Source: Pseudocercospora fijiensis CIRAD86 (Eukaryota; Ascomycota; Dothideomycetes; Mycosphaerellales; Mycosphaerellaceae). From it: 64,000 nt of DNA. Position numbers and translations under genes: made by a program. Location of the stretch: contig NW_006921538.1 in the NCBI RefSeq assembly GCF_000340215.1, positions 2,108,001-2,172,000 on the forward strand, read 5' to 3'. Below are positions 36,085-44,087 of the stretch, piece after piece. Each line of letters starts with the position of its first letter. Position 1 is the stretch's first letter. The notes below the pieces were generated by a model that was given only the letters and a program-made list of their open reading frames with translations, did not search any database and was not told where the DNA came from.

Positions 36085-36115
<31 letters not shown>

Positions 36116-36168
36116 CGGAGCCGGAGCCGGAGCCAGAGCCAGAGCTGGAGCTGGAGCCAGAGCTGGAG

Positions 36169-36205
<37 letters not shown>

Positions 36206-36767
36206 TGGAGCCGGAGCCAGAGCCAGAGCCAGAGCCAGAGCCAGTAGAGCCGTATGGATTTGGCGAGCCGTAGCCAGAGCCAGTAGAGCCGTATGGATTT
36301 GGTGAGCCGTAGCCAGCTGGACTTGAAGGCACTGTTGGTGTTATTGGGCTCGGTGGAGTTCCGCCACTAGAGCCGTAGCTAGCGGGACTGGGAGGCAATG
36401 ATGGGTTCACTGGGGTCGATGGAGTATCTCCATAGCCAAGTGGAATGGCAGGCTTTGATGGGCTTACTGGAGTAAGATTGGGTGGTGATGATGAACCATA
36501 GCCAGCTGGACTGTCAGGGATTGACGGGCTTGCTGGGCTCGGTGGAGTTCCGCCGTAGGTAGAGGGGCCGGATGGGCTTGCTGGGCTCGGTGGAGTTCCG
36601 CCGTATGTAGAGGGGCCGGATGGGCTTACTGGGCTCGGTGGAGTTCCGCCGTATGTAGAGGGGCCGGATGGGCTTTTTGGATTCCCGTTATCATCACGGA
36701 CCTTGACAACTGGGCCCGCGAAGACTGAGGCGCTGAAGAGCGCGGCGATCAAAGTTGCAGTGTGCAT
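35478..36767 (-). CDS. Secreted protein with three LysM domains and a repeat-rich stalk
   Basis: An intronless frame of 429 residues with a signal peptide ([18 protein letters not shown]). Residues about 30-235 are low complexity: three tandem 16-residue units ([16 protein letters not shown] type), two [13 protein letters not shown] units and a long Ser-Gly run. Three LysM domains follow: [16 protein letters not shown] with [12 protein letters not shown] (about 247-293), [16 protein letters not shown] (about 316-363) and [16 protein letters not shown] (about 374-420), each with flanking Cys. LysM domains bind chitin. Three-LysM secreted proteins such as Ecp6 and Mg3LysM shield chitin from plant recognition. 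The long stalk is not typical of those effectors, so a wall-associated or surface role is also possible. Confidence 0.88.
36080..36690. repeat. Coding mini- and microsatellites in the LysM gene
   Basis: On the plus strand, a 6-nt period of gccaga/gccgga type runs about 36,080-36,245 (encoding Ser-Gly). Two near-identical 39-nt units lie around 36,246-36,325. Three 48-nt units lie around 36,530-36,680. All keep frame. Confidence 0.85.
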
Positions 36768-40091: not shown

Positions 40092-41642
40092 TCAATGAAC
40101 AAAGATCCTCTTCCTATCCCAGTCGCGATCTTGACACCACTTTTCCACCTCTTTGTCAAGCTTCTCATAGCTGTCGTACACATTGTTCATCATCTCGTTG
40201 ACACTTTTACCTTGCGCCTCCCTATCTGGTCCATCGACTGTCTCCCAGATAGATCTCATGAGCTCCATGACCGCGAATAATTGATTAGGTAGCCATGTGA
40301 CAATCGGACTCCCTCCAGTAGCAGTCGGATGGGAACTGCGCCTGATGATGTACTCGCGCGCAAAGAGCCAATGCCGCCAGCGAAAGCTTCGCACATGTTC
40401 CAACAGACGCAGATACAAGACCTTGGTCTGAAGATCTTTCAAGCAGTACTCTTTGACACCGATCTCCTCCGCACGAGATCGCACATAGGCAAGGAAGTCT
40501 CGGTGTGGTTTCGGCCTGTATCCGCGGAAGTCTTTCAGAATCTCGGTGAGTGGATTTTGAGGCATTGGGATTTGAAGCAGCGAGTCCAGCAATGGAATGA
40601 TGGCATCATTTGCACCAGACTCGCCACGAAAGTACTGTGGTTTATTTCCGTCGACACCTTCGTACACGACACCATTGGGAAAGAACGGCTGGTTTGTGAT
40701 GCCAAAAATGAAAGTCCGATAGCTGATGTAGTCCTTTGGTCGTGACTGGTTCCACATGCCCTCCATGGAGTCTTCGATTACGCGCATGGTGTTGAGGAGA
40801 AGCTCGAAGGCGTCATTGACAGTGGAGCTGCCGGTATCTGCCGCCACGGCATCAAGCATCTGCACAGCGCCCTGTATGAGCGGTCCGGTGTGCTTGACCA
40901 TATCAACGTGAGTTAAGATGAAGCCAGCCTCCGAAGAGCTTGGGTCAAGGCCCTTTTCAAATGCTCTGATCAGACGTAGGTTGCTATATTCGGATGCGCC
41001 GATGGCAGAGTTGGAAAAGCGATAATTGAATAAAGCATAGCCGGCAGCGTACGCCAAGAACGCTGGCACATCGAGGCTGTTACGCTGTTAGTTGATGCAT
41101 CCGAGCTAGATTTCTGCCGATACCTACAGCTTGGCACACTTGACAAGCGGACCAGCGATTTCTTTGGGAAGCAGCTCACGGCCAGTTCCGTATGTGCCAT
41201 CGATGTTCCACTGCTTCCAACAAGGCTCAAGTAGATAGGCGGATGCCAGAAAAGAGTAGTCTCTAAAGGCGGCAGAGACGGCAGTCAGGTCAGGCTTGCC
41301 ATCCGAGGCAATGAGGTTGTCAATCTCATGGTTCAAGTCAGGCAATGCTTTCTGCTCGTCGATCATGGGGCCAAGCTTGTATGTAGCCAGCAGTCCAGGG
41401 GTGCCATCAAGTTTTTCAATTGGCATATCGTCGCATAGTTTCTGGAGTGGAGCAAAAACGGAAGGAAGCTCGACCTTTGGCGTCTGCAAAGGTAAGAAGC
41501 CATTCTGTGTTGTGATGGTGAAAGGATCCAGAGAAGGCGGGAGAGTAGCCGGATCAGCATGGATATGCTGAAATACCGTGGCAGTATTGGTCACCTTGAC
41601 CTTATCATCATGGTCGGTGCCACCGCTGAGGTAAGGACTCAT
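40092..41642 (-). CDS. BNA2: Indoleamine 2,3-dioxygenase
   Basis: Heme enzyme that opens the indole ring of tryptophan to N-formylkynurenine, the first step of the kynurenine route to NAD. Two exons: 41,642-41,128 and 41,076-40,092, with a 51-nt intron from gtaggt to aacag containing ctaac. The joint reads CAKLLDVPAFLAYA, as in the family. The product is about 499 residues. Diagnostic blocks are FRDYSFLASAYLLEP, NYRFSNSA, FIFGITNQPFFPNGVVYEGV, YFRGESGANDAIIPLLDSLL and SFRWRHWLFAREYI, whose RHW region holds the proximal heme His, then THPTATGG-like HPTATGGSPI. The frame upstream of the chosen ATG starts only at a TTG but is rich in Arg/Ser, so a longer targeted form cannot be excluded. Confidence 0.95.
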
Positions 41643-42428
41643 GTTGCTAAGGGAACGAAGGGCGGGTGGGGAGAAGTGAGATGAAGTTGAAAAGGCTTGG
41701 CGAAAGCCACGTGAGACAAAGAACAATATCAGATGGCCTTGCGAAAGGGCTCCAGATCTGTGTTTTGAGGGAAAAGAAAGAGAGTGAAATCTGGAGAAAA
41801 GCTGCCCTTATGTATCTGGTGGCCGGAATTTGCGCCTGAAGTCTGGCATTTCCATTATCGCAGGTTTGCAAGATAACGTTTCCTATTGGTCTGGCCGGAA
41901 CATATGCGCGGTGGGGAGAGAGCGATAGCAGCGCGGATTGACCGCCTGATCACAATCCAAGGGATTAGGATGATGATTAACACCAAGACAGAGATGGAGA
42001 AGTGTTGAACTGCATCCAAGGTGGGTGTGAAAGGCCAGGACGTTGTTGTGAACGACGACCTGAGCACAACTGGCGCAGCGACAGCGAGTCTCATCCGGAA
42101 TGGGAGGCGGCGGTGGCGGCGGCGGCGGCGGTCAGGCCTGCGTATGACGGGGTGTACAGTTTCAGGTAGCCACAAGCATGTGCCAGCAATCCGAGGCAGC
42201 TTGCCTTCTTGAACATCGGAATGAGGTTGAGATGTAGAGTTTGCAAGGTGTGGCATCACGGTCACGTGACCCAAGACGGAATCGAAGGAATCATTGGGGC
42301 GTGGTCCAGGATATGTCGTATAGTAGTGATGCATATCGTAATTGGATGTCTCTCAGCCTGATCACGGGACGTCCCGGTATGTTGAACGGGTCTGCATGAT
42401 ACTCCAAACACGCTCGAAGAATCGAGCC
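41643..42428. other. Upstream region of IDO; GGC repeat and E-box palindrome
   Basis: Contains the IDO promoter. Other visible items are a GGC-rich trinucleotide run at about 42,105-42,131, a 12-bp E-box palindrome at 42,260-42,271 and a palindrome CGGGACGTCCCG at about 42,365-42,376. No coding gene is supported. Confidence 0.6.
42260..42271. promoter_or_regulatory. CACGTG E-box in a 12-bp palindrome
   Basis: GGTCACGTGACC is a perfect palindrome around CACGTG, the site of fungal bHLH factors such as Cbf1 and Pho4. The flanks (GTCACGTGAC) match the Cbf1-type preference. It lies about 620 bp upstream of IDO. Binding is inference. Confidence 0.45.
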
Positions 42429-42456
42429 TGGACGAGCGCACTTCCGAACTCGTCTA
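42429..42456 (+). other. Hairpin 1 of array
   Basis: Stem GACGAG/CTCGTC, extended by a G-T and a T-A pair, around apical CGCACTTCCGAA (42,437-42,448). Confidence 0.75.
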
Positions 42457-42482
42457 AGGCAGCCAATGGTAATGAGCAAGAC

Positions 42483-42513
42483 TGAGTAGCGAACACTTCC
42501 GGACGCTGGCTCA
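42483..42513 (+). other. Hairpin 2 of array
   Basis: Inner stem AGCG/CGCT plus a T-G pair. Past a bulged G comes TGAG/CTCA. Apical sequence AACACTTCCGGA (42,492-42,503). Confidence 0.7.
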
Positions 42514-42580
42514 AGTATGCTCGGGACGCAGAGGTATAACTCAGGGAATAGCTCTAAAAGCGTTCTTCGCAGTAAGGGAA

Positions 42581-42611
42581 GATTTGGCCAACTCTTCCGG
42601 AGGCACAAATC
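42581..42611 (+). other. Hairpin 3 of array
   Basis: Stem GATTTG-GCC / GGC-A-CAAATC: nine pairs with one bulged A. Apical sequence AACTCTTCCGGA (42,590-42,601). Confidence 0.75.
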
Positions 42612-42623
42612 CGATCATATCAG

Positions 42624-42651
42624 CTGACAGCAACACTTCCGGAGCTGCCAG
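42624..42651 (+). other. Hairpin 4 of array
   Basis: Stem CTGACAGC / GCTGCCAG, seven pairs and one A-C mismatch. Apical sequence AACACTTCCGGA (42,632-42,643). Shares its stem core with hairpin 7. Confidence 0.75.
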
Positions 42652-42704
42652 GCTTGTGAGAGGCGAAGCACAGCAAGAAGCATCATCGTTCAGGTACGGA
42701 ACCA

Positions 42705-42734
42705 TTGGTAGCCAACACTTCCGGAGGCATCCAA
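42705..42734 (+). other. Hairpin 5 of array
   Basis: Stem TTGG-TA-GCC / GGC-AT-CCAA: seven pairs with a 2x2 internal loop. Apical sequence AACACTTCCGGA (42,714-42,725). Confidence 0.7.
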
Positions 42735-42839
42735 ATTATCCGCATCGGGGTACTGTGACCTGGCAGAGACAGGTACGCAGTGTAAAGGGCGGAGGTACGC
42801 GCTGGGTGCGGATGGTCGTTTCCGCCTTGGAGATGGGTT

Positions 42840-42865
42840 TGAGGTGAGCACTTCCGAACACCTCA
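42840..42865 (+). other. Hairpin 6 of array
   Basis: Perfect 7-bp stem TGAGGTG/CACCTCA around apical AGCACTTCCGAA (42,847-42,858). Confidence 0.8.
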
Positions 42866-42915
42866 CCCTTGGCCGCCTGCGACGTTCATGGCGACGGAAC
42901 CAGATCCAAGCATGT

Positions 42916-42947
42916 TTCTGACAGCAACACTTCCGGAGCTGTCAGAA
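42916..42947 (+). other. Hairpin 7 of array
   Basis: Perfect 10-bp stem TTCTGACAGC/GCTGTCAGAA around apical AACACTTCCGGA (42,926-42,937), the longest stem of the set. Confidence 0.85.
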
Positions 42948-43602
42948 TGGGTGTTGGGTTGACAAAAATGTGCTCTTTGCGAACAGAAGATGCTATCCTC
43001 TACACTGATAAGAGTTTTCACCGACCATCACGGTGGTCTGGGCTAGCATGGACCACCTCTTTTCTCCGCAGAACATCTTCTGCACTTGATTAAGCCCGTC
43101 CTCTCGTCGACTTCATGCCTCTGCTTTCGAATGAACGCCGTCGCCGTCGCCGTCGCCGTTGCGCATAATGCGTTGGAGCGGCCTTTTCGGGCGAGTGGCT
43201 CGTCGCATGGAACCTCGAGATACGCAGCCTTCGCAAGCGTCGGATAGGGAATGAGGAGCCATAGTCGAAAGATGTAAGTCCAGAAGTCCGTAGAAGATTA
43301 GTAATGAGTTTGACGACGACAAGATGAACAATAAGTTATCGGCGTCGATGTCGTGTGCAAAACGAGGAGAAGAAGCTGAGCCGTCAGCTTCAGCCTCGGC
43401 AAACTTCTCCACTCACTCCCTCCCATTGCCAAGAACATCCCAGGCTTCATGACAACACCTCCTCTCACAGTCACCAGTCTCAAGCCACCTATCAATGACA
43501 AGAGCCATTCTCAAGATCCAGAAACACAGAACCGTCATCACAACTCCCCTGAAAAAGTCCTTCTTCACTCCCTCACAAATCAGGAACAACAGCACAACAA
43601 TG
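42948..43602. other. Region between hairpin array and GFA gene
   Basis: Holds a GCAGAA-CATC-TTCTGC hairpin near 43,069-43,085 that lacks the shared 12-mer, and a GCCGTC repeat at about 43,135-43,160. The last part is the promoter or leader of the GFA-domain gene. A 99-codon minus frame (43,113-43,412) begins at GTG and has no supporting feature. Confidence 0.5.
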
Positions 43603-44087
43603 GCAACCAAAGCCCCGCCGATCATCGCAACCAGAACATCCCAATGTCTCTGCAAATCGATCAGAATCGAAGTCACAGGACAAGACAAAGGCTCCGTGCT
43701 ATGCCATTGCAATAACTGCAAGCAAACCTCCGGAAGCTCATTCATGCACAATCACAGATTCACGAAATCCGAGGTTAAAGTCCTCGAGGGCAAGAATCTT
43801 TTGAAAGCGTACAAGGACTCTGACACGAAGAGTGGGAATACGCTATCGCGGTACTTTTGTGGGAATTGTGTAAAGTCGCATTTTGACTCGTTTGTCTGGT
43901 TCTTCGGGTGCTGATTTTGCATGTGTAGGGATCGTCGCTTTATTTGACGAATTCTGCGATCAAGGGCTTTGTGGCTTTACACTGTGGGAATCTTGAAGGG
44001 ATGAAAATGAGGCCTATAATGGAGTTGTTTCCGGAAGACAAACCGAGCTGGATTGGAAATGTCTTGGAGGAGAAGGCCAGGCTATGA
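43603..44087 (+). CDS. GFA/CENP-V domain protein (glutathione-dependent formaldehyde-activating family)
   Basis: Two exons: 43,603-43,869 and 43,929-44,087. The 59-nt intron runs from gtaaag to tgtag, and the joint CGNCGSSLY rebuilds a family motif, giving about 141 residues. Zinc-binding cysteines are visible in CLCKSI, CHCNNC and CGNC, with the C-terminal KGFVALHCGNLEG. Relatives either condense formaldehyde with glutathione or have unknown substrates. The frame is open back to an ATG at 43,495, which would add 36 residues rich in Lys, Arg, Ser and Thr with no acidic ones (a possible mitochondrial presequence). I prefer 43,603 for its strong start context (acaATGGC). Confidence 0.88.

Follow-up and report, generated by a model that had tools for sequence, protein, structure and literature searches.

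A seven-hairpin array with a near-constant apex and variable paired stems at a single locus of Pseudocercospora fijiensis, putatively a multivalent protein-binding RNA

We found an array of seven hairpins in the intergenic DNA between the gene for indoleamine 2,3-dioxygenase (IDO) and a frame with a glutathione-dependent formaldehyde-activating enzyme (GFA) domain in Pseudocercospora fijiensis CIRAD86 (Table 1). The array lies within the window that was analysed, a stretch of 64,000 nucleotides (contig NW_006921538.1, positions 2,108,001 to 2,172,000), and positions below are those of the window. The seven copies of the apex conform to [AC][AG]C[AT]CTTCCG[GA]A, are all on the plus strand within 42430-42947 (518 bp), and each tips an inverted repeat; the 12-mers start at 42437, 42492, 42590, 42632, 42714, 42847, and 42926. 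The array is real and, as a structured element confined to a single locus, unusual; it is probably RNA.

Table 1 Features of the array, its flanking genes, and the U1-like genes. Bit scores are those of the covariance model built from the seven copies. Positions are those of the window, except for the U1-like genes, whose positions carry the handle of their own sequence.
Feature	Left arm / apex / right arm	Position	Strand	Remarks
Hairpin 1 (H1)	GGACGAG / CGCACTTCCGAA / CTCGTCT	42430..42455	+	Outermost pair G-U on the plus strand; 30.7 bits
Hairpin 2 (H2)	TGAGTAGCG / AACACTTCCGGA / CGCTGGCTCA	42483..42513	+	A single G bulge in the 3' arm and a U-G pair on the plus strand; 33.0 bits
Hairpin 3 (H3)	GATTTGGCC / AACTCTTCCGGA / GGCACAAATC	42581..42611	+	A single A bulge in the 3' arm; 31.9 bits
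Hairpin 4 (H4)	CTGACAGC / AACACTTCCGGA / GCTGCCAG	42624..42651	+	One A-C mismatch on the plus strand (G-U on the minus strand); 34.8 bits
Hairpin 5 (H5)	TTGGTAGCC / AACACTTCCGGA / GGCATCCAA	42705..42734	+	2x2 mismatch within the stem; 37.7 bits
Hairpin 6 (H6)	TGAGGTG / AGCACTTCCGAA / CACCTCA	42840..42865	+	36.1 bits
Hairpin 7 (H7)	TTCTGACAGC / AACACTTCCGGA / GCTGTCAGAA	42916..42947	+	Perfect 10-bp stem; 38.6 bits
IDO gene		40092..41726	-	Frame 40092-41069 matches Pfam IDO (PF01231, 1.5e-25)
Frame with GFA domain		43495..43914	+	PF04828, 1.8e-19
U1-like L111		C5:437211-437366	-	
U1-like L112		C4:3258538-3258687	-	
U1-like L113		C3:2834976-2835107	+	
U1-like L116		C2:5043100-5043261	-	
U1-like L117		C10:1660385-1660540	-	

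The earlier note on this DNA had described seven plus-strand copies of a 12-mer within 520 bp, and all of them are present. The five copies of its core 8-mer, CTTCCGGA, were likewise recovered in the array; they belong to nine occurrences on both strands of the window, where 2.04 are expected and none of 100 shuffles reached nine. The hexamer CTTCCG is present in all seven apices. A paired stem, which the note had reported at each copy, was observed at all seven, with corrections for four of them: a one-base bulge in H2 and in H3, an A-C mismatch in H4, and a 2x2 mismatch in H5. H4 and H7 had been regarded as recent duplicates; this is true of the hairpin itself (28 nt, 96% identical), and the flanks look unrelated by eye. 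By eye, the units fall into three related groups, H1/H6, H2/H3/H5, and H4/H7, and the independent changes are accordingly fewer than seven. A further strong hairpin without the common apex, GCTCGA-AGAA-TCGAGC, lies just 5' of hairpin 1 at 42412-42427 on the plus strand. Between the hairpins, AGGTACG occurs three times on the plus strand (42692, 42771, and 42793), against 0.04 expected.

Subsequently, the pairing of the stems was compared with chance. When bulges were allowed, 59 opposed stem positions comprised 54 Watson-Crick pairs, two G-U pairs on the plus strand, one A-C (G-U on the minus strand), and two other mismatches; thus 56 of the 59 are Watson-Crick or G-U, in addition to two single-base bulges. 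The stem scores were 9, 7.5, 7.5, 7, 5, 7.5, and 10 in the order of the 12-mers, and 20,400 other positions in the window gave a mean of 1.6 (sd 1.5). The single-site tail fractions ranged from 0.0001 to 0.04, with H5 as the weakest, and their product was about 1e-19, which is a rough value because related copies are not independent. When the right arms were exchanged among the copies, the true matching of arms ranked best of all 5040 permutations. In an ungapped alignment, both sides had changed in seven of eight modelled pairs, a count matched by 10 of 500 shuffles; the pair-type count of the array was reached by 4 of 500, and its percentage of paired positions by none. The covariation score was 0.744 against a shuffled mean of 0.215 (reached by 0 of 500), and it was at most 0.19 when the partners were slid, a control that favours the unslid version since the structure was drawn from the same seven sequences. 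By arm permutation, tail fractions, and covariation, the variable stem with a constant apex, as the note had proposed it, is far beyond chance.

Furthermore, a covariance model built from the seven copies gave 30.7-38.6 bits in the array, where a match arises by construction, and 14.4 bits at the best other place in the window, in agreement with the remark in the note that the stem-plus-12-mer combination is confined to the array there. Of the seven-mers on the plus strand of the window, 46 recur at least four times within 600 bp, and seven of these belong to the array. For six of these seven, the best mean stem score was 7.4-7.7 for some loop frame, and for the seventh (TCCGGAG) it was 5.0; the best mean stem score among the other 39 clustered seven-mers was 5.6.

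Pairwise identity between the copies was 87% in the apex, 31-38% in the arms, and 24-26% in the outer flanks. These values bear on a neutral origin, in which small duplications together with quasi-palindrome correction by template switching would keep the arms paired without selection on RNA. Such an origin agrees with the grouping of the units by eye, and one mutational mechanism could restore pairing. However, it could explain the arms and not the far higher identity of the apex, and bulges or mismatches remain in four of the seven stems (H2-H5); we therefore regard a neutral origin as improbable.

The letters at apex positions 2 and 11 change together: H1 and H6 have G..A and the other five copies A..G, as would be expected of a non-canonical A-G pair. 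Because these positions co-vary and a C-G pair is available at positions 3 and 10, the apex is suggested to be not an open loop of 12 bases but a small structured element (A-G pair, C-G pair, and six-base loop), in a comparison of two states alone, for which a single evolutionary event could account. Kissing-loop regulators act by loop base pairing, and the array might similarly be a multi-loop antisense regulator whose loops pair with an RNA containing a CGGAAG-like sequence, as the CTTCCG within every apex would allow. The co-varying positions speak instead for a structured apex rather than a free loop. Moreover, five exact copies of the 12-mer were counted in the genome of 73.9 Mb, four in the array and one elsewhere (L031); the reversed control has three, more than this one other perfect site. 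The probability of an antisense regulator is consequently considered small.

The degenerate apex MRCWCTTCCGRA was found 192 times in the genome (seven in the array and 185 outside it) against 183 times for the reversed control, so that a genome-wide DNA motif is unsupported. Of the 39 sites in the genome at which the apex stands between G/C letters, SMRCWCTTCCGRAS, seven belong to the array, with stem scores of 5-10; the remaining 32 did not exceed a stem score of 4.5. Among 65 distinct apex sites examined after repeated 40-mers were dropped, a score of at least 5 was observed in all seven of the array and in two of the 58 others (L019, 7.5; L030, 6.0), both of which are closed by T and A. We also searched 57 of 76 loci from the same genome with cmsearch, leaving out 12 loci that cover the array and seven that resemble further copies of included repeats. 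With E values up to 10 allowed, 50 matches resulted, and the best of them (L048, 20.0 bits, E 0.0032) was below every copy in the array. When the genome was searched at the DNA level with 561 bp, the array found itself alone, in a search that skips very common words; with one copy, a dispersed repeat, MITE, or transposon was rejected. The earlier note had named a random genome-wide distribution of the 12-mer without flanking inverted repeats as evidence against its reading; this describes the genome outside the array and not the array itself. As far as searched, the one-copy result and the weak stems at other apex sites speak against a mobile element, as well as against a common regulatory hairpin that carries this exact apex, and leave the array as a dedicated locus.

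The same counts bear on two explanations at the level of DNA. On the minus strand, the apex reads CGGAAG and contains an ETS-type, GGAA-like sequence, with GGAA in all seven copies, and seven sites of the same orientation between two divergent genes could form a cluster of transcription-factor sites in a divergent promoter, the stems being incidental. To our knowledge, ETS factors are animal-specific. Such a cluster leaves the paired arms unexplained, given the product of their tail fractions, and the degenerate apex is hardly enriched in the genome; we consider it very unlikely. Alternatively, cruciforms or single-stranded folds might be read at their constant tip by a recombinase, a replication initiator, or a DNA-binding protein, for which hairpin-recognising Y1 transposases and attC-type sites are precedents. 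A constant tip on a varying stem equally suits recognition of single-stranded DNA, and H4 and H7 are near-duplicates of the hairpin alone. However, the array is single-copy by DNA search, no comparable stem was present at the 32 other G/C-flanked apex sites, and the Pfam scan of nine neighbouring frames revealed no mobile-element domain. Integron attC boxes read RYYYAAC / GTTRRRY, and these boxes matched on neither strand of the array, which is thus not attC-like. We accordingly assign folded DNA a very low probability.

Rfam gave no match in the window at the gathering threshold. At a relaxed threshold, one match was obtained in 42250-43200 (E 1.7), and its 17.8 bits fall short of the gathering score of 46. 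The covariance model gave nothing above 15.1 bits on 34 viral stretches with double-apex patterns at varied spacings. In prokaryotes, such patterns occurred in at least 119 stretches, and the best among the 80 examined with the model reached 19.1 bits. One of these prokaryote stretches, on a Cyanothece contig (L129, 1340-1700), contains a constant repeat with unique spacers and looks by eye like a CRISPR array. Among the literature matches listed for the letters of the apex, none describes a fungal RNA in its title or the start of its abstract.

The array is positioned 5' of both divergent neighbours: one end is 548 nt short of the first ATG in the GFA frame, and the other is 704 nt from the start of the upstream IDO frame. 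This upstream open frame (41124-41726) has no Pfam match and is likely the N-terminal exon of IDO. It is possible that the array is the leader of either neighbour. No Pfam domain was detected in three open frames from the interval. Simple pattern scans detected no TATA[AT]A on either strand, no Pol III A box on either strand, and no B box on the plus strand; one B-box-like site lies outside the array at 42010 on the minus strand. No tRNA was found with the bacterial code setting. Elsewhere in the window, tandem-like repeats around GGCTCGGTGGAGTTCCGCC occupy 36100-36670 on the plus strand, partly in 48-bp steps, and perhaps encode a repetitive protein. The 561-nt stretch folded better than 40 shuffles, with z of -3.1 on the plus strand and -2.4 on the minus strand; for several 120-nt segments within the array, shuffles folded equally well or better (z up to +0.9 for the plus strand). 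The strand-diagnostic pairs are two G-U on the plus strand versus one on the minus strand, and the hairpin energies are similar for both strands.

There is good support for selection on a folded strand. The earlier note had read the array as selection on RNA structure; the structural part of that reading is the best one, and we infer the remainder, namely that the plus strand is transcribed, that the structure is one of RNA and not of DNA, that a protein binds it, and that it works as a decoy or scaffold. We tentatively favour, at somewhat less than an even chance, a single-locus transcribed RNA in which the hairpins are putative repeated binding sites. The 518-bp stretch would be all or part of this RNA, which would be either independent and noncoding or the long leader of one of the neighbours. 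Each hairpin would present [AC][AG]C[AU]CUUCCG[GA]A on a stem of free sequence, so that the reader would recognise the tip with the stem as mere support. The presence of seven copies within 518 nt suggests that one RNA-binding protein, or less likely a partner RNA, would be gathered at the apices in several copies, and the RNA would act as a multivalent decoy or scaffold. A repeated structured motif, a constant recognition part, and a variable support are all present in the array, as in multivalent protein-binding RNAs, which are a functional class and not a homologous family. The other sites examined yielded no clear hairpin of this type, and hence there is no obvious structured target for decoy competition. 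The function is putative and is proposed by analogy only.

Sponge RNAs of the CsrB/RsmZ type, which act in bacteria with CsrA/RsmE, carry ANGGA in apical loops. The array would resemble them in holding many copies of a short protein-binding motif in one RNA, its own binding being putative, and differs in that its near-constant part is 12 nt. CsrB is described as having 22 GGA sequences, with the high-affinity CsrA sites in single-stranded hairpin loops (PMC5027483). In the array, ANGGA was present in none of the seven apices on either strand and four times elsewhere on the plus strand; bare GGA was present in five apices on the plus strand and in all seven on the minus strand. A six-frame search of the genome gave no match to CsrA (PF02599), and matches were obtained in 3 of 14 control genomes. 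With no CsrA in the genome and ANGGA in no apex, membership in the CsrB/CsrA system fails. In fission yeast, meiRNA contains its protein-binding motif in numerous copies and has been suggested as a lure for Mmi1; the part of the source available gives the motif as the hexanucleotide UNAAAC and mentions no stem (PMC6789587). The likeness would be that of a fungal noncoding RNA with a repeated protein-binding motif, the transcription and binding of the array being putative, whereas the constant part of the array is an apex on a stem and that of meiRNA, as described there, a hexanucleotide. TNAAAC was present in none of the seven apices. CsrB and meiRNA are thus working analogies only, and neither implies family membership for the array.

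The iron-responsive element, with its CAGUGN apical loop, has a constant loop on a variable stem in untranslated RNA. The earlier note had invoked its general logic, and the likeness holds for that logic alone and not for membership: CAGTG (CAGUG) was found in none of the seven apices on either strand and once elsewhere in the array on the plus strand, and the array has seven copies, where iron-responsive elements number one or a few. The recognition hairpin of Vts1/Smaug has CNGG at the loop. This motif was present in five of the seven apices and missing from H1 and H6, which end in GAA, and the assignment was rejected. The U1A-binding hairpin has an AUUGCAC loop, and mimicry of it was also rejected, since AUUGCAC was present in none of the seven apices; it is present in seven U1-like genes of the same genome. 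The candidates of PMC5640933 and PMC8216456 are similar in being structured fungal noncoding RNAs found by covariation. The table of 17 in PMC8216456, as far as available, names no array of like hairpins, and the available text of PMC5640933 contains no mention of tandem, repeat, multiple hairpin, loop sequence, Mycosphaerella, or Dothideo (0 occurrences).

As a separate observation, the seven U1 snRNA-like genes scored 40-50 bits, all below the Rfam gathering score of 69.5. Three of them (L111, L112, and L113) contain a stretch of 58-59 nt of the spliceosomal-intron type (GTAAGC or GTGAGT ... CTAAC or CTGAC ... ACAG). It sits within the end that recognises the 5' splice site, as ATACTT / intron / ACCTTG (ACCTTA in L113). 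By eye, a fourth gene, L116, has the same stretch with a GC-AG start; L117 looks degenerate, and L114 and L115 are without an intron-like stretch. Introns in snRNA genes are known from other fungi. Among the literature matches listed, no title concerned a U1 intron. If these introns are real, the production of U1 would itself require splicing by U1.

Returning to the transcribed RNA that we favour, a more specific form is possible but doubtful: the array would be a fungal regulatory RNA whose seven hairpins, with their near-constant 12-nt apex, serve an RNA-binding protein as a multivalent decoy or as a condensate scaffold. Such an RNA would be a eukaryotic counterpart of the CsrB-type sponge RNAs, by design and not by descent. 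Covariation is normally read between species; here it was read between seven copies in one locus, which provides structural evidence from a single genome. If transcribed, the array would be a ready bait with which to find the partner and the rule by which it recognises the apex. For fungi, a motif presented on a stem would broaden the kind of decoy RNA that meiRNA, with its motif described as a hexanucleotide, represents.
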